Shown here: positions 9,009-19,145 of the stretch, piece after piece
Numbering within the stretch: the first letter of the stretch is position 1
How the letters are laid out: each line of letters opens with the position of its first letter
Source: Phycisphaerales bacterium
GTDB lineage: Bacteria > Planctomycetota > Phycisphaerae > Phycisphaerales > UBA1924
Assembly: GCA_030680655.1 (NCBI GenBank)
Contig: JAUXUZ010000513.1
Location: 1 to 32,173 of the forward strand
Length of the DNA: 32,173 nt
Direction of reading: 5' to 3'
Program-made: the position numbers and the translations under genes
Notes under the pieces: model-generated
Told to the model about the DNA's origin: nothing
Seen by the model: only the letters and a program-made list of their open reading frames with translations
The model's database searches: none

Positions 9009-9365
9009 GTGAACTTCGTGGGCGCGGGCCTCGCGGCGGCGCGGGCCATGGCGCTGGTGCACGATGTGGGCAGCAGCCCGGCGGACATGGGGCGGCAGGC
9101 GGGCGTGCTCGGCGGCTATGGCCTGCTGGCCAACAACGATTTCATCGGTCTCTTCTTTGAGGACGCGCCGCTCGCTGATGTCGGTCGCCAGGGCGGCATC
9201 GCGCCTGGTGACGGGGTGTTCGATAGCAACGACTTCGTCGTGTGTTTCGACGCCTTCGTTACCGACGCGCTTCGAGCGTCTGCCAGCGTGCAAGCGGCGA
9301 GGGACCGGGATACAGGACAAACCCCGAAAACGCCTAATGCCAACTGCATAATGCAGTTGCTTTAA
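9009..9365 (+). CDS. Orphan ORF containing a two-repeat dockerin-like module
   Basis: The 118-codon frame contains two gapless 29-residue repeats. The first starts ADMGRQAG and ends in NNDFIGLFFEDA; the second starts ADVGRQGG and ends in SNDFVVCFDAFV. Both align without gaps to the repeats of the dockerin-like domain at the ends of the three downstream secreted proteins. The capping cysteines (GxC...SCR) are missing, no signal peptide is visible, and the GTG start at 9009 has no ribosome site; an ATG at 9048 is an alternative. The frame is the same as that of ccoS, with 45 nt between the ccoS TAA and this GTG. It could be the surviving 3' end of a decayed dockerin gene or a real small protein. 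The repeats are seen directly; gene status is uncertain. Confidence 0.45.
   Translation: MNFVGAGLAAARAMALVHDVGSSPADMGRQAGVLGGYGLLANNDFIGLFFEDAPLADVGRQGGIAPGDGVFDSNDFVVCFDAFVTDALRASASVQAARDRDTGQTPKTPNANCIMQLL
9341..9359. repeat. 19-bp near-perfect palindrome upstream of dockerin gene 1
   Basis: CAACTGCAT and ATGCAGTTG flank a single central A and are perfectly complementary. The element lies 27 bp upstream of the -35 candidate of the following gene and overlaps the end of the orphan ORF. An adjacent 8-bp palindrome CTTTAAAG occupies 9360-9367. It could be a protein-binding operator, or a weak hairpin (7-bp stem, 5-nt loop) ending the upstream transcript. Confidence 0.45.
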
Positions 9366-9445: not shown

Positions 9446-9464
9446 GATCGGCATTCTGCCGGTC
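9446..9464 (+). promoter_or_regulatory. Leader hairpin of dockerin gene 1
   Basis: GATCGGCA (9446-9453) pairs with TGCCGGTC (9457-9464), 8 bp with one T-G wobble around a TTC loop, in the 5' untranslated leader. Its position (about 30 nt after the -10 and 41 nt before the ATG) resembles that of the leader hairpins of the two sister genes, and the loop region again reads ATTC. Confidence 0.4.
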
Positions 9465-9505: not shown

Positions 9506-11020
9506 ATGATGTCGATGAATGTGAAGAAGGGTCTGTTCGCTGCAACCGCCGCCGCCACGCTCTGCGCTGGTGCCACCGCGGACGTGGTCATTGTTCTGCC
9601 GTCGGGCAACTTCGGTGCTGGTCAGGACTTCAGCATGACGAGCCCGCCGCTCAGCGGCACGCTCACCGGCATCATCTTCTCATACGAGTACTCCAACGCC
9701 GCCGGTGCATCGTGGGCCGCCGACATGGCCGCCACAGTCGGCGCGAGCCAGTGGGGCTACTTCAACCGGTTCTGCAACGGGGCCAGCATCAACGAAGGCG
9801 CCACCGGCGCTCCGAACAATGGCACGCCGATCAATTTCACGTCTGCCACGCTCCCGATCGGATCGCCCGTCACGTACACCAACGAGACGGTACTTGTCGG
9901 CTGGGGCAATAGCTGGAACGGCGGCTCAGGCACCATGGCCAACGTCACCCTCACGCTCGTCGGCGTGAGCGTCGGTAACGGACCGACCAACCCCACCGGT
10001 CTTGGCGCGTCCACGAACTTGGGGAGCGGCTCGGTCCTTCTCACCGTCACGACCTTCGGCGGCATCAATCCCGCCAGCACGGGCATCTCCGTCAACGGCG
10101 ACCTGTCGGCGCTGGGCGGCGGCGGCTCGGTGGCGTTCTTTGACAACGGCACCAACGGTGACGTGACGGCCCTTGACGGCGTGTTCTCGTACACAACCAG
10201 CGTCGGCAGCCTCGCCGATGGCGACGCGTATTCAGTGGGCTTCACCGTGTCTGACGCTGAATCGCGATCCTCAAGCGGCGCGATCAACGGGACAGTTGAC
10301 CTGGCGGGCCAGACGCTCGCGACGGCGGCTGTTCCGAGCGGCGCCGGCGCGCTGGATGCGATCTCGGGCTTCTTCGGGCCCAACGACGTCGACATTTACA
10401 AGATCAATATCTGCGACGCCGCGAACTTCTCGGCGACAACCTTCGGCGGCACCACCGCCGACACGCAGTTGTTCCTCTTCAACACCGACGGCTTTGGCGT
10501 CGTGGCTAACGACGATGTACCAGACGGTCTTCCCGGCGACGCCACGCTGCAGTCAACCATTACCAGCGCCCTGATCCCCGGCAACGGTGACTACTACTTG
10601 GCGGTGACCCGCTACAACACCGATCCGGTCGATGCCGGCGCGGCTCTGATCTGGGCGAACACCCCCTTCAACACCGAGCGATCGCCCGACGGCGCCGGCG
10701 CGGGGAACCCCCTCGCGGCCTGGACCGGCGCATCGGCCGGCACCTCGACCTACACCATCGCGTTCACAGGCACGTGCTACCCGTCGAGCGGCCCGATCTG
10801 CGGCCTGGCCGATGTGGGCGGCGTCGGCGGTGCGCCGGGCGCTGACAACCACCTGGACAACAACGATTTCGTTGTGTTCATCGACTACTTCTTCTCGCAG
10901 AACCCGATCGCCGACCAGGGCTCAACCGGCGGCGTTGCGGGTGCCGACGGGGTGTACGACAACAACGACTTCATCGTCTTCATCGATAACTTCTTCAACG
11001 CCCCGGCCTCGTGCCGCTGA
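9506..11020 (+). CDS. Secreted protein with PPC-like domain and C-terminal GC-type dockerin-like module (gene 1)
   Basis: The 504-residue product has an N-terminal signal peptide (about residues 1-25, ending ATA|D). A beta-rich N-terminal region follows, then a choice-of-anchor-X-like domain with DNGTNGDVTALDG (near residues 160-265). Next is a PPC-like domain beginning near FGPNDVDIYKINICD (about 290-425). The C-terminal 73-residue dockerin-like module (432-504) has two EF-loop-like repeats, each ending NNDF(V/I)VFID.FF, capped by Cys at both ends. Domain names are family inference; the repeats and signal peptide are visible. No enzyme motif was recognised, so the function is unknown, probably an extracellular or cell-surface structural or binding protein. 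AGGGAG (9493-9498) supports ATG 9506; ATG 9509 and 9518 are in-frame alternatives. It has its own promoter and terminator. Confidence 0.88.
   Translation: MMSMNVKKGLFAATAAATLCAGATADVVIVLPSGNFGAGQDFSMTSPPLSGTLTGIIFSYEYSNAAGASWAADMAATVGASQWGYFNRFCNGASINEGATGAPNNGTPINFTSATLPIGSPVTYTNETVLVGWGNSWNGGSGTMANVTLTLVGVSVGNGPTNPTGLGASTNLGSGSVLLTVTTFGGINPASTGISVNGDLSALGGGGSVAFFDNGTNGDVTALDGVFSYTTSVGSLADGDAYSVGFTVSDAESRSSSGAINGTVDLAGQTLATAAVPSGAGALDAISGFFGPNDVDIYKINICDAANFSATTFGGTTADTQLFLFNTDGFGVVANDDVPDGLPGDATLQSTITSALIPGNGDYYLAVTRYNTDPVDAGAALIWANTPFNTERSPDGAGAGNPLAAWTGASAGTSTYTIAFTGTCYPSSGPICGLADVGGVGGAPGADNHLDNNDFVVFIDYFFSQNPIADQGSTGGVAGADGVYDNNDFIVFIDNFFNAPASCR
10799..11020 (+). repeat. Dockerin-like module coding repeat, copy 1
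   Basis: This 222-bp coding repeat (73 codons plus stop) recurs at 12713-12934 and 14722-14943 with high nucleotide identity. Most differences are at third codon positions. Within it two 29-30-residue half repeats (starting LADVGGVGG and IADQGSTGG) align without gaps. Confidence 0.85.
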
Positions 11021-11051
11021 ACCGCGGCTGACTTGAACCCGTCCCCCGTTG

Positions 11052-11088
11052 CGCCCCGCGCGGCTCCGGCTGCGCGGGGCGTTTTCTT
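11052..11088 (+). terminator. Intrinsic terminator of dockerin gene 1
   Basis: Perfect 10-bp stem CGCCCCGCGC (11052-11061) / GCGCGGGGCG (11072-11081) with a 10-nt loop, followed by TTTTCTT. It lies 31 nt after the stop codon. It is almost identical to the terminator of gene 3. Confidence 0.9.
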
Positions 11089-11107
11089 GCGGCCAAGAGA
11101 GGAATTT

Positions 11108-11128
11108 GCACTACGCAGTAGTGCGTAG
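11108..11128. repeat. Two interleaved inverted repeats
   Basis: GCACTAC (11108-11114) pairs with GTAGTGC (11118-11124), while CTACGCA (11111-11117) pairs with TGCGTAG (11122-11128). The two perfect 7-bp dyads overlap and exclude each other in single-stranded form. The element sits between the gene 1 terminator and the gene 2 promoter; no function is known. Confidence 0.5.
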
Positions 11129-11157
11129 GGCGGGTAGTGGGCAGATGATTAAGTTTA

Positions 11158-11173
11158 AATTAGCCTTCTAATT
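11158..11173. repeat. Small AT-rich dyad upstream of the gene 2 promoter
   Basis: AATTAG (11158-11163) and CTAATT (11168-11173) are perfect inverted repeats around CCTT. The dyad ends 12 bp before the -35 candidate, the same distance as the larger dyad ahead of gene 3. It is a possible operator. Confidence 0.4.
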
Positions 11174-11185
11174 GCCGCACGGGCA

Positions 11186-11214
11186 TGGCCATTCGTCGTT
11201 TCTTGAGTTCTACT
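11186..11214 (+). promoter_or_regulatory. Candidate promoter of dockerin gene 2
   Basis: TGGCCA (11186-11191, 4/6) and TCTACT (11209-11214, 4/6) are separated by 17 bp. The pair aligns without gaps to TTGCTA/TCTAGT upstream of gene 3 at a constant offset of 1888 bp. This co-conservation is better evidence than either weak hexamer alone. Confidence 0.45.
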
Positions 11215-11239
11215 TGAGCGTCCGGTGCGGCGTGTGTCG

Positions 11240-11261
11240 CGCGGCGGTATTCACCGCCGCG
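11240..11261 (+). promoter_or_regulatory. Conserved 5' leader hairpin of dockerin gene 2
   Basis: CGCGGCGGT (11240-11248) pairs perfectly with ACCGCCGCG (11253-11261) around an ATTC tetraloop. It starts 25 nt after the -10 and ends 50 nt before the ATG. The equivalent hairpin before gene 3 keeps all nine pairs through two G-U wobbles. Confidence 0.7.
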
Positions 11262-11311
11262 GCTCCTCTCTGGAGTCGCTGCCCGGTTTCGCTTGTAACA
11301 GGGAGAAATGA

Positions 11312-12934
11312 ATGAAAACGAGACTTATGGCCCTTGCTCTGGCTGCGTGCGCAGGAACCGTGTTCGCCAGCCCTCGCGAGTCGCAGGTTGCGCCGACGCC
11401 GCTTGATAGCGACGATCCGGGTGGGACGTTCAACATGACGTTCGCCAACAGCGACGGCGGCGGCGCATATACGGCCTTCCGCGTTCGCTTCACTGGCATG
11501 CTGACGTCGAACGTCGGGGGAACGTACGCCCAGGAAGTCGCTATCGATGTCACGCCCCCGGGTGGCGCGGTGCAGACGTTCCTTCTCGGAGCAGGCTTTA
11601 CCTACTCGACTCAATCCTTCGATATCGTGCGCACCCTCGCCGCCCCGGTCGCGACCGGTGGCACATGGACGTTTGCCTTGCGTGAGACCTATGACGACGC
11701 GGCCGGCATTCCCGATTCGACCGTCTCAGACCTGGTCGTCACGCTTGACGACGCGGCTGCTGAGCCCCCCACGCACACCAATCTCGGCACGCTGGTTGAC
11801 GGCGTGCCCGTCTCACAGGAGGTTGTCCTCGAAGCGGGCGAGGTGAAGTGGTTCAAGGTCACCACCGCCGAAGCCTCCGAGGCGGCGCACCGCAAGCTCG
11901 ACATCAACACGCTCGCTTCGACCTTTGGCGGCGACAGCGAGATCGGCGTCTACACCAGCACCGGCACCGGGCTCTTCGCCAACGACGACGCGGGCGGCGG
12001 GCTCTACAGCCAGCTCACCTTTGGTGAAGAAGGAGCGGCCGGGACGCTCGCTGCCGGCACGTACTTTGTTGCCGTCAGCTCGTACAACGCGACGTTCCTT
12101 GTTGCCGACTGGACCGTAACGAGCACGGGTCCCGGCGGCACGTTCCAGCTTACCCTGGCTCAGACCGTCTTTACGCCTCCCGTGGGCATCTGGAGCGAGT
12201 CGGCTGACGGTGGCGGCGACGCGGGCCAGGAACTCGCTAGCGCGCAGGTTGTGAGCGGCACGGGCGACCTTCCCCGAATCACCGGCTCGTTCGGTGTTGA
12301 CGATGTCGACATCTACAAGATCAACATCTGCGACACCGTCAGCTTCAGCGCCAGTACTGCTGGCACAGCGCCCGTCCTTGACACACAGTTGTTCCTGTTC
12401 AATGCGGACGGCACCGGCGTCGTGATGAACGACGACAACACCCTCGGCGGCGGCGGCCTCTGGTCGGCGCTGGACAACACCACCGGCTTCATCGCCGCGG
12501 CCGGTGACTACTACCTCGCCATCAGCCGCTACGACATCGACCCCACCAGCGGTGGGCTTGAGATCTGGGCCGACACCCCCTTCGCGGCCCAGCGTCAGCC
12601 CGACGGCGCCAACGCCGCCGGCATCCTTGACGGCTGGATCGGTGCCAACGCGGCCACCGGCAACTACCGCATCGACTTCACCGGCACCTGCCGCGTCGGC
12701 GCGGGACCGGCCTGCGGTCTGGCCGATGTGGGCGGCGTCGGCGGTGCGCCGGGTGCTGACAACCACCTCGACAACAACGACTTCGTCGTCTTCATCGACT
12801 ACTTCTTCACCCAGAACCCCATCGCCGACCAGGGCTCGACCGGCGGTGCGCCCGGCGCTGACGGCTCGTACGACAACAACGACTTCATCGTCTTCATCGA
12901 CAACTTCTTCAACGCCCCCGCCTCGTGCCGCTGA
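11312..12934 (+). CDS. Secreted protein with PPC-like domains and C-terminal GC-type dockerin-like module (gene 2)
   Basis: The 540-residue product starts with a signal peptide (residues 1-19, VFA|S). A beta-sandwich follows (about 20-145) with a WTFALRETYDDAAG segment that recalls proprotein-convertase P-domains. Two PPC-like regions come next (about 155-285 and 320-465). The second, from DVDIYKINICD to the QRQPDGAN segment, is nearly identical to the one in gene 3. The module at residues 468-540 is the Cys-capped dockerin-like domain. No catalytic motif was recognised, so a surface or extracellular adhesive role is possible but unproven. AGGGAG (11300-11305) lies 6 nt before ATG 11312. The gene is monocistronic, with its own promoter, leader hairpin and terminator. 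Confidence 0.88.
   Translation: MKTRLMALALAACAGTVFASPRESQVAPTPLDSDDPGGTFNMTFANSDGGGAYTAFRVRFTGMLTSNVGGTYAQEVAIDVTPPGGAVQTFLLGAGFTYSTQSFDIVRTLAAPVATGGTWTFALRETYDDAAGIPDSTVSDLVVTLDDAAAEPPTHTNLGTLVDGVPVSQEVVLEAGEVKWFKVTTAEASEAAHRKLDINTLASTFGGDSEIGVYTSTGTGLFANDDAGGGLYSQLTFGEEGAAGTLAAGTYFVAVSSYNATFLVADWTVTSTGPGGTFQLTLAQTVFTPPVGIWSESADGGGDAGQELASAQVVSGTGDLPRITGSFGVDDVDIYKINICDTVSFSASTAGTAPVLDTQLFLFNADGTGVVMNDDNTLGGGGLWSALDNTTGFIAAAGDYYLAISRYDIDPTSGGLEIWADTPFAAQRQPDGANAAGILDGWIGANAATGNYRIDFTGTCRVGAGPACGLADVGGVGGAPGADNHLDNNDFVVFIDYFFTQNPIADQGSTGGAPGADGSYDNNDFIVFIDNFFNAPASCR
12713..12934 (+). repeat. Dockerin-like module coding repeat, copy 2
   Basis: Second copy of the 222-bp coding repeat. It differs from copies 1 and 3 mainly in the linker (FFTQNP) and in the start of the second half repeat (GGAPGADGSYDNND instead of GGVAGADGVYDNND). 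Confidence 0.85.
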
Positions 12935-12966
12935 TCCGCGGCTGAGCTGAGACAGTCTTCCTTTGG

Positions 12967-13003
12967 GCCCCGCGCGGCTTGTGCCGCGCGGGGCTCTTTG
13001 TTT
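12967..13003 (+). terminator. Intrinsic terminator of dockerin gene 2
   Basis: Perfect 12-bp stem GCCCCGCGCGGC (12967-12978) / GCCGCGCGGGGC (12983-12994) with a TTGT loop, followed by TCTTTGTTT. It lies 32 nt after the stop codon. Confidence 0.92.
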
Positions 13004-13031
13004 GGCGGCAAACGTACGGGATTTGTTTGGA

Positions 13032-13061
13032 GCATTCGGTAAAGAATTCCTCATCGAATGC
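13032..13061. promoter_or_regulatory. 30-bp three-part dyad, candidate operator of gene 3
   Basis: Outer arms GCATTCG (13032-13038) and CGAATGC (13055-13061) are perfect inverted repeats. The central GAATTC (13044-13049) is itself palindromic and lies on exactly the same axis (13046.5). The dyad ends 12 bp before the -35 candidate, a position typical of an activator or repressor site. Symmetry is seen; binding is inferred. Confidence 0.5.
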
Positions 13062-13073
13062 GACCTAGGGGTA

Positions 13074-13102
13074 TTGCTACCGGGCCGGTCCTGTGGTCTA
13101 GT
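13074..13102 (+). promoter_or_regulatory. Candidate promoter of dockerin gene 3
   Basis: TTGCTA (13074-13079, 4/6), 17 bp, TCTAGT (13097-13102, 4/6). It aligns without gaps to the gene 2 promoter, and the distance from the -10 to the leader hairpin is 25 nt in both. Confidence 0.5.
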
Positions 13103-13127
13103 AGAGAGGTTCGTGCTGGTGGGATCA

Positions 13128-13149
13128 CGCGGCGGTACTCATCGCTGCG
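13128..13149 (+). promoter_or_regulatory. Conserved 5' leader hairpin of dockerin gene 3
   Basis: CGCGGCGGT (13128-13136) pairs with ATCGCTGCG (13141-13149) around an ACTC loop. Compared with gene 2, two C-to-T changes in the 3' arm turn G-C pairs into G-U pairs, so the RNA stem is kept. The hairpin ends 33 nt before the ATG. Confidence 0.65.
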
Positions 13150-13182
13150 GCCAGTGCGGTAGTTCTCAAGGGAGGCCTCATC

Positions 13183-14943
13183 ATGCAATCGAAGATGTTT
13201 GTACTCGCGTTGGCGGTCGCTGCGGGAAGCGCGTTCGCTCAGAACTCGATCGTGGACAACATCGCCGGAACGTTCGTCGATATATCGACAATGGGGAGCG
13301 TCAACAGCCTCGTTGCGTTTGATTCTGACGACGCCAGCTACGCGTTTACCAGTTCAGTGACCAACGGGATCTTCGCGTCAACGACGGTCCGCGTCTGTAC
13401 GAACGGTTACGCCCAGTGGGGCGGCGCGACGGGGGGGACGGCCTATTTCAATGGCGCGATCGCCAGCGGCACGGCCAGCCCGATGGCACCTGTTGATAGC
13501 CAGTGCCTCATGCCGCTTTGGGATGACCAGTACGTGCGTCCCGGTGGAGGGGCCAACCTCCACTGGATTGAAGGACCGGCGTCAAGCTTTGGCCTGCCTT
13601 CAGCGGCCGGCAACGTGCTGATCATCCAGTGGACGAACGTCGAGCACTACTTTACCTCGACGGGGCTGGCGACGTATCAGATCCAGGTGTTCCAGAACCC
13701 ACTCGGCGGGAGCGTCGCCGCGCAGATGCTCTACCAGAACGTGAACTTCGGCAACGCCGCCTGGGACAACGGGGCAAGCGCGACCATTGGCTTTGCCTCG
13801 GGCACGACCGGCGGCGCTGCGTCAATCAACAACGTGCAGTGGGCGTTCAACAGCGCTGGGAGCGTCAACAACGGCGACGTGTTGAGCCTGCTGATCCCCA
13901 CCGCCTCGGTGCCGCCGTCAGGCGTCGGCTCGTCTGTTGCGGCCGGTTCGAGCGTGCTGCTGCGCGTGAGCACCGCGTCCGGCTTTAACCCCAGCAGCTC
14001 GAGCATCACGGTGACCGGCAACCTGAGCACGAGCATGGGTGGGCCCGCGTCGGTCGCGTTCCAGGATGATGGCCTGAACGGTGACGTCACCGCCAGCGAC
14101 GGCACGTATTCCTACCTCGCTTCATACCCGTCGGGCACCACGGACGGAACGGCGTTTACCGTCCCGTTTACGGTTACGGACAATCTCGCACGCAGCAGCA
14201 GTGGCAGCATCAACTTCACTGCCGATACGGCCGGTGATCTTCCTGCGATGGCGGCGGTCCTGCCTGGCAGCGGCGACCTCTCGTCGATCACGGGTGTGCT
14301 GGGCGCCAACGACGTGGACATGTACAAGATCAACATCTGCGACATGGCGAACTTCAGCGCCACGACGCAGAACACGGCGCCGACGATCGACACCCAGCTG
14401 TTCCTGTTCAACGCCGACGGCACCGGCGTGGTCATGAACGACGACAACCCCGCAGGCACCGGCGGTCTGTGGTCGCGCATCGACAACACCACCGGGTTTA
14501 TTGTGGCCAACGGTACGTACTACCTGGCGATCAGCCGCTACGACATGGACCCCACCAGCGGGGGTCTTGAGATCTGGGCCGACACTCCTTTCGGCGCTCA
14601 GCGTCAGCCCGACGGCGCTAACTCAAGCGGCATCGTGGACGCTTGGAACGGGGCCAACGCCAACACCAACGGCTACCTGATCGAACTGACGGGCACGTGC
14701 TACCCGTCGAGCGGGCCGATCTGCGGCCTGGCCGACGTCGGCGGCGTGGGCGGTGCGCCGGGCGCTGACAACCACCTGGACAACAACGACTTCGTCGTGT
14801 TCATCGACTACTTCTTCAACCAGAATCCCATCGCCGACCAGGGCTCAACCGGCGGGGTTGCCGGCGCCGACGGCGTGTACGACAACAACGACTTCATCGT
14901 CTTCATCGACAACTTCTTCAACGCCCCCGCCTCCTGCCGCTGA
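13183..14943 (+). CDS. Secreted protein with nidogen-like, PPC-like and C-terminal GC-type dockerin-like regions (gene 3)
   Basis: The 586-residue product has a signal peptide (residues 1-19, AFA|Q). Its N-terminal region (about 20-240) has a conserved pattern of NGYAQWGG, MPLWDDQY and IIQWTNVEHY that recalls nidogen-like extracellular domains. A choice-of-anchor-X-like region with DDGLNGDVTASDG follows (about 245-345), then a PPC-like domain (about 365-505) nearly identical to gene 2, and the 73-residue Cys-capped dockerin-like module (514-586). The protein looks like a mosaic of the modules of genes 1 and 2 behind a unique N-terminus. No enzyme motif was seen. A GGGAGG ribosome site lies just upstream of ATG 13183. 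It has its own promoter, leader hairpin and terminator. Confidence 0.88.
   Translation: MQSKMFVLALAVAAGSAFAQNSIVDNIAGTFVDISTMGSVNSLVAFDSDDASYAFTSSVTNGIFASTTVRVCTNGYAQWGGATGGTAYFNGAIASGTASPMAPVDSQCLMPLWDDQYVRPGGGANLHWIEGPASSFGLPSAAGNVLIIQWTNVEHYFTSTGLATYQIQVFQNPLGGSVAAQMLYQNVNFGNAAWDNGASATIGFASGTTGGAASINNVQWAFNSAGSVNNGDVLSLLIPTASVPPSGVGSSVAAGSSVLLRVSTASGFNPSSSSITVTGNLSTSMGGPASVAFQDDGLNGDVTASDGTYSYLASYPSGTTDGTAFTVPFTVTDNLARSSSGSINFTADTAGDLPAMAAVLPGSGDLSSITGVLGANDVDMYKINICDMANFSATTQNTAPTIDTQLFLFNADGTGVVMNDDNPAGTGGLWSRIDNTTGFIVANGTYYLAISRYDMDPTSGGLEIWADTPFGAQRQPDGANSSGIVDAWNGANANTNGYLIELTGTCYPSSGPICGLADVGGVGGAPGADNHLDNNDFVVFIDYFFNQNPIADQGSTGGVAGADGVYDNNDFIVFIDNFFNAPASCR
14722..14943 (+). repeat. 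Dockerin-like module coding repeat, copy 3
   Basis: Third copy of the 222-bp coding repeat. Its protein sequence differs from copy 1 at a single linker residue (FFNQNP instead of FFSQNP), and similarity continues through the stop codon into the terminator. Confidence 0.85.
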
Positions 14944-14974
14944 TCGTCGGCTGACTTGAACCCGTCCCCCTTTG

Positions 14975-15011
14975 CGCCCCGCGCGGCTCCGGCTGCGCGG
15001 GGCGTTTCCTT
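14975..15011 (+). terminator. Intrinsic terminator of dockerin gene 3
   Basis: Perfect 10-bp stem CGCCCCGCGC (14975-14984) / GCGCGGGGCG (14995-15004), followed by TTTCCTT. Stem, loop and the preceding spacer match the gene 1 terminator almost base for base. On the opposite strand no T-run follows, so it does not obviously stop convergent thrC transcription. Confidence 0.88.
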
Positions 15012-15038
15012 GTGGCTGAAGACCGGTGCGCCATGCGG

Positions 15039-19094: not shown

Positions 19095-19145
19095 ATCGGT
19101 CAAATGCCCGGTTCTCGGGCCATCACCGGCTTTCAGGAGCTGTCT

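Follow-up and report, generated by a model that had tools for sequence, protein, structure and literature searches.

The leaders of E. coli ompA and papA and of B. subtilis aprE are stabilisers of mRNA that work as stem-loops at the 5' end of the transcript. The two leaders analysed here resemble them in that a predicted stem-loop lies between the putative transcription start and the ribosome site, in a message that encodes an exported or surface protein, with the Shine-Dalgarno sequence 3' of the stem. They differ in consisting of one long, bulged hairpin and in coming from a different phylum, and the likeness is one of predicted fold, with no sequence relation shown. Stabilisation of transcripts by 5' hairpins is reviewed in PMC3997798, and ompA-type leaders are cited in PMC3997798 and PMC7509114. 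The latter review also cites a case in which a stem-loop too near the Shine-Dalgarno sequence lowered stability, which by analogy serves as a caution for one of our two leaders, that of gene 2. The cis-regulatory leader RNAs collected in Rfam are likewise structured 5' leaders; unlike them, the RNA described here has two members, no family match and no recognised expression platform. Dockerin proteins of Planctomycetes, with a proposed 'planctosome', are the subject of a passage of PMC6461901. They share with the proteins of our locus the combination of signal peptide and dockerin module, whereas that passage deals with a different planctomycete family and its cohesin/dockerin proteins, and leader RNA does not come up in it.

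A tandem array of dockerin genes

The window, i.e., the whole 32,173-nt stretch of DNA that was analysed, is contig C442 of the draft genome G000 of an uncultured planctomycete-like bacterium (3.4 Mb, 593 contigs), in which the GC-type dockerin model NF041540 gave 119 hits. Four relatives that were also searched had 108-141 such hits each. Three dockerin genes of the window stand in tandem:

9506 to 11020, forward strand: gene 3 (the third tandem gene), with a C-terminal module and terminator in common with genes 1 and 2 and a different leader
11312 to 12934, forward strand: gene 1, a 540-aa signal-peptide protein with a DVUA0089-family region (NF038127) and a GC-type dockerin (NF041540)
13183 to 14943, forward strand: gene 2, a 586-aa signal-peptide protein with a choice-of-anchor X region (NF041940) and a GC-type dockerin (NF041540)

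The dockerins of genes 1 and 2 score 48.3 and 49.6 bits, above the curated cut-off of 29. Across the array (9506-14943) the N-terminal modules differ, while the C-terminal module and terminator are common to all three genes, as if the front halves had been swapped. Genes 1 and 2 agree in 78% of amino acids and 82% of nucleotides over their C-terminal halves, and the terminators of the genes preceding their leaders are homologous over 67 nt (76%); terminators and C-terminal coding halves in the array are 76-93% identical. Because these parts are homologous in addition to the leaders, genes 1 and 2 appear to have arisen by tandem duplication. At fourfold-degenerate sites, the homologous coding ends are about 0.57 identical in two blocks, the best-aligned ones. 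This value marks the leaders as probably old duplicates with near-neutral divergence outside the hairpin.

Two further observations concern the history of the array. Genes 3 and 2 are 93% identical over 181 nt at their 3' ends (10913-11093 and 14836-15016), with near-identical terminators, and gene 1, which lies between them, is about 82% identical at the corresponding end; this points to a possible gene conversion. In addition, a degenerate dockerin match at 9078-9260, upstream of the array (24.4 bits, below the cut-off), is perhaps the remnant of a fourth gene.

Alignment and predicted fold of the two leaders

As claimed in the earlier note, the upstream regions of genes 1 and 2 run in parallel from the -35 to the end of a small hairpin: 11186-11262 and 13074-13150 align without gaps at a constant offset of 1888, with 48 of 77 positions identical. 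Upstream of the -35, identity drops to 21/66, near background, so the homology starts at about this point. The stretch before the hairpin is identical at 28/54 positions, the best among 121 offsets (runner-up 21/54), and the hairpin itself at 20/23. Its 23-nt pattern occurs twice in the window, compared to 0.03 copies expected from shuffling, and identity within the apical hairpin (19/22) exceeds that of the fourfold sites (P about 0.003). The earlier picture of a conserved hairpin in a diverged leader is thus borne out by the counts, but the hairpin is not alone in its homology, which extends to the terminators and C-terminal coding.

The 5' arm of the hairpin, CGCGGCGGT, is the same in both leaders. 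The 3' arms, ACCGCCGCG in gene 1 and ATCGCTGCG in gene 2, have two differences, both of them C/T opposite G and both converting G-C to G-U pairs, exactly as had been reported; the loop reads ATTC in gene 1 and ACTC in gene 2. By themselves, these wobble changes are weak evidence for selection on RNA, since only one side of each pair was altered.

RNAfold, applied to each leader separately from the base after the putative -10, predicted one common architecture: three helices (outer, middle, and inner), an internal loop of 7 nt on the 5' side, and a 9-bp apical hairpin with a 4-nt loop. The features, including the putative promoters, are as follows:

11186 to 11215, forward strand: putative promoter of gene 1, TGGCCA, 17-18 nt, TCTACT; 16/30 positions identical to 13074-13103
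11216 to 11294, forward strand: predicted structured leader of gene 1 (RNAfold -48.2 kcal/mol over 11216-11311, z about -3.0)
11216-11220 with 11290-11294, forward strand: gene 1 outer helix (RNAfold)
11222-11225 with 11283-11286, forward strand: gene 1 middle helix (RNAfold)
11227-11232 with 11277-11282, forward strand: gene 1 inner helix (RNAfold)
11233 to 11239, forward strand: gene 1 internal loop (RNAfold)
11240 to 11261, forward strand: gene 1 apical hairpin, CGCGGCGGT, loop ATTC, ACCGCCGCG; a 9-bp perfect inverted repeat
11262 to 11276, forward strand: extra 15-nt hairpin, GCTCCTCTCTGGAGT, at the 3' junction, only in gene 1
11300 to 11305, forward strand: gene 1 Shine-Dalgarno sequence AGGGAG, separated from the end of the fold by 5 nt
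13074 to 13103, forward strand: putative promoter of gene 2, TTGCTA, 17-18 nt, TCTAGT
13104 to 13167, forward strand: predicted structured leader of gene 2 (RNAfold -35.8 kcal/mol over 13104-13182, z about -3)
13104-13108 with 13163-13167, forward strand: gene 2 outer helix (RNAfold)
13115-13120 with 13150-13155, forward strand: gene 2 inner helix (RNAfold)
13121 to 13127, forward strand: gene 2 internal loop (RNAfold)
13128 to 13149, forward strand: gene 2 apical hairpin, CGCGGCGGT, loop ACTC, ATCGCTGCG; two G-U pairs
13168 to 13174, forward strand: gene 2 Shine-Dalgarno sequence AAGGGAG, immediately downstream of the fold

Genes 1 and 2 are thus predicted to carry a stable stem-loop in their 5' untranslated regions. 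The extra hairpin explains most of the greater length of the gene 1 leader; when it is left out, both structures measure 64 nt and align ungapped. The middle helix is present in both genes with its register slipped by one base, and the internal loop is fixed in size at 7 nt with poorly conserved letters. The short hairpin first proposed as the conserved RNA element is therefore real, but it forms only the tip of a shared fold that spans the whole leader. The leader of the third tandem gene (start 9506) lacks the element and does not share the fold (z +0.48).

The pairing was compared between these two sequences of one genome, with a set of in-register pairs picked after viewing both folds, so that the probabilities derived from it are optimistic. 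All 20 of the 20 in-register pairs are standard in both genes, and four of them have both sides altered. The outer and inner helices contribute 11 pairs outside the apical hairpin, 11/11 standard in both genes; four have changed both letters (C-G/A-U, G-U/U-A, C-G/G-C, and G-C/U-G), three have changed on one side, and four are identical. Outside the apical hairpin the leaders differ at 22 positions; random filling of these, as a model of unconstrained divergence, gave all 11 pairs in 0.22% of trials, and permuting gene 2's own letters at the differing positions did so in 0.38%. Sliding the 3' partners by 1-3 columns reduced pairing from 100% to 30-62%. Shuffling the 3' letters between the two rows reached the observed counts in 34/500 cases, approximately what two sequences allow. 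Shuffles of the arms matched the observed fold energy in 0.35% of cases for gene 1 and 0.7% for gene 2 (P 0.007). Finally, the sense strand of gene 2 folds 17.6 kcal/mol better than the antisense strand (P 0.010 against shuffles), and gene 1 has no such excess; the better fold of gene 2 on the RNA-sense strand speaks against a DNA palindrome. Together, the whole-leader fold with its two-sided pair changes and the strand bias of gene 2 support the view, put forward in the earlier note on the basis of the hairpin, that selection has acted on the RNA structure of the leaders. With two sequences only, the support is moderate.

The promoter assignment for both leaders is tentative. The hexamers are weak, with no 9/12 match to sigma-70, and TCTACT is not enriched on the sense strand (5 vs 7 in 748 leaders). 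A TTGACA-17-TCTACT arrangement occurs upstream of another dockerin gene, C358. Strand bias was observed in the 748 leaders for TTGACA (16 sense vs 2 antisense) and TAGACT (19 vs 5), a hint of what may be the lineage's housekeeping promoter. De novo promoter discovery yielded mostly remnants of dockerin coding sequence, besides a weak motif resembling TTGC-n14-GTAnACT. Assuming that transcription begins 7 nt downstream of the putative, weakly supported -10, the first or second RNA base would already be paired; the outer helix would then be untranscribed, with a z for gene 2 of about -1.5. The Shine-Dalgarno sequence lies outside the main stem in both leaders, and its bases are predicted to be unpaired only in part, with ensemble probabilities of 0.29 and 0.46.

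Distribution of the element

From the genome we extracted 110 upstream regions of dockerin genes; in 93 of these, a signal-peptide start could be used. The hairpin was absent from every other dockerin leader extracted, and no further copy was found in the genome at one mismatch. A covariance model, R1, recovered only the two window copies at the dockerin loci of the genome and nothing convincing at loci from two further dockerin-rich genomes. In two overlapping samples, of 150 genomes from the family and 400 from the order, nothing exceeded chance-expected scores: only the two window copies scored above 29 bits, and the strongest of the other hits that were inspected, at 28.6 bits or less, lay in reading frames, none seen before a dockerin gene. 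The search had been suggested as a way to find the element before other GC-type dockerin genes; with no convincing hit beyond the locus in the 400 order-level genomes and no match among the other dockerin leaders of the same genome, the data give no support to the suggestion of a site at which one regulator would act on dockerin-anchored proteins in common.

None of 4227 Rfam families matched the window at the gathering score. The closest protein paralogue of gene 1 (C137:2-1132, 61% amino acid identity over residues 6-379) has a leader that is unrelated in sequence (z -0.6), and no close orthologue of gene 1 was found in the same genus. Folded in 40-nt windows, the 93 dockerin upstream regions had a mean z just a little below zero, at about -0.1 to -0.3; strong folding is therefore not a general property of dockerin leaders. 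As far as searched, the leader is locus-specific and not dockerin-wide.

Recurrence of the short hairpin in other genomes was considered and rejected: with one mismatch allowed, 101 genomes contained 21 matches to the pattern, a count little higher than that of a reversed-pattern control. Outside the window, long reading frames ran across nearly all of these matches, none of which was observed ahead of a dockerin gene.

Leader hairpins with ATTCT, GTTCT, GCTCG, ATTC, or GTTC-type loops precede several signal-peptide genes, at these places:

9446 to 9464 of the window: loop hairpin of this type
19106 to 19120 of the window: loop hairpin of this type
L192, L193, L198 and L211: loop hairpins of this type

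Leader hairpins with an RYTC loop (RYUC in RNA) numbered 8 vs 1.0 expected before dockerin genes and 4 vs 0.4 before other signal-peptide genes of G000, and 5 vs 0.6 and 8 vs 1.0 in a second set (reverse strand 0 to 4). Early counts, in which upstream coding was retained, may owe part of their excess to dockerin codons of the preceding gene. In a prospective test on three 400-kb stretches of other genomes, 7/88 hairpins had such a loop, as did 3/99 for the reverse strand, a strand difference short of significance (P 0.19), and further leaders yielded 0/29. A general family of RYTC-loop leader hairpins is thus not established, as the enrichment in two sets was not replicated prospectively.

Candidate roles of the leader RNA

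We tentatively read the two leaders as homologous 5' untranslated RNAs whose fold has been kept by selection and which would act as a 5'-end mRNA stabiliser inherited by tandem duplication; among functions for the leader RNA, stabilisation is the most plausible. Duplication within the array would have yielded both leaders. Each RNA would form a single long hairpin with imperfections, beginning near the transcription start and ending shortly before the Shine-Dalgarno sequence; its apical stem-loop is strongly conserved, and selection would have retained this fold while many letters changed. The paired 5' end would block single-stranded entry for decay enzymes, and the ribosome site would stay outside the stem. 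In this scheme the homology, the predicted shared fold, the two-sided pair changes, and the lack of any copy found outside the locus are computed results; where transcription starts, that the transcript is stabilised, and which nucleases take part is what we infer.

The main rival to the stabiliser reading, a real possibility if the less probable one, is that the similarity is a functionless remnant of tandem duplication, possibly renewed by gene conversion, and the fold largely a by-product of GC-rich shared sequence. The comparable identity of array terminators and C-terminal coding halves fits this explanation, as do the 3' ends of genes 2 and 3 with their suggestion of conversion, and an element found nowhere else. 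However, it does not predict that the apical hairpin is conserved beyond the fourfold sites, that the outer pairs are retained despite 22 differences, or that the changes preserve pairing rather than letters.

A cis-regulatory RNA that switches genes 1 and 2 by binding a protein, a small RNA, or a ligand is unlikely. The conserved apical hairpin, the internal loop of fixed size, and the position of the structure between promoter and ribosome site would suit such an RNA, but the leaders match no Rfam family at the gathering threshold, no poly-U terminator was found after the stem in either of them, the Shine-Dalgarno sequence is not in the main stem, the letters of the internal loop are poorly conserved, and the element was found at no other gene. 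It is more speculative still, and improbable, that the pair represents the first two members of an undescribed, fast-evolving family of leader RNAs, conserved in shape and not in sequence, which would be bound by a factor and set the output of particular dockerin-tagged surface proteins. A DNA operator for a transcription factor, or a promoter-proximal palindrome, is suggested by the perfect inverted repeat downstream of the gene 1 promoter, but is very improbable because the hairpin changes are wobble-only, breaking the DNA symmetry in gene 2 and keeping the RNA pairs, with strand-specific folding in gene 2 (none in gene 1) and no further one-mismatch copies in the genome.

For planctomycete-like bacteria, in which leader-RNA structure and mRNA decay appear little explored, the confinement of the putative stabiliser to one tandem pair, as far as searched, guards against over-reading it as a dockerin regulon. 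A fold that is kept despite the change of letters provides a concrete, testable case of 5'-end control in a dockerin-rich genome.
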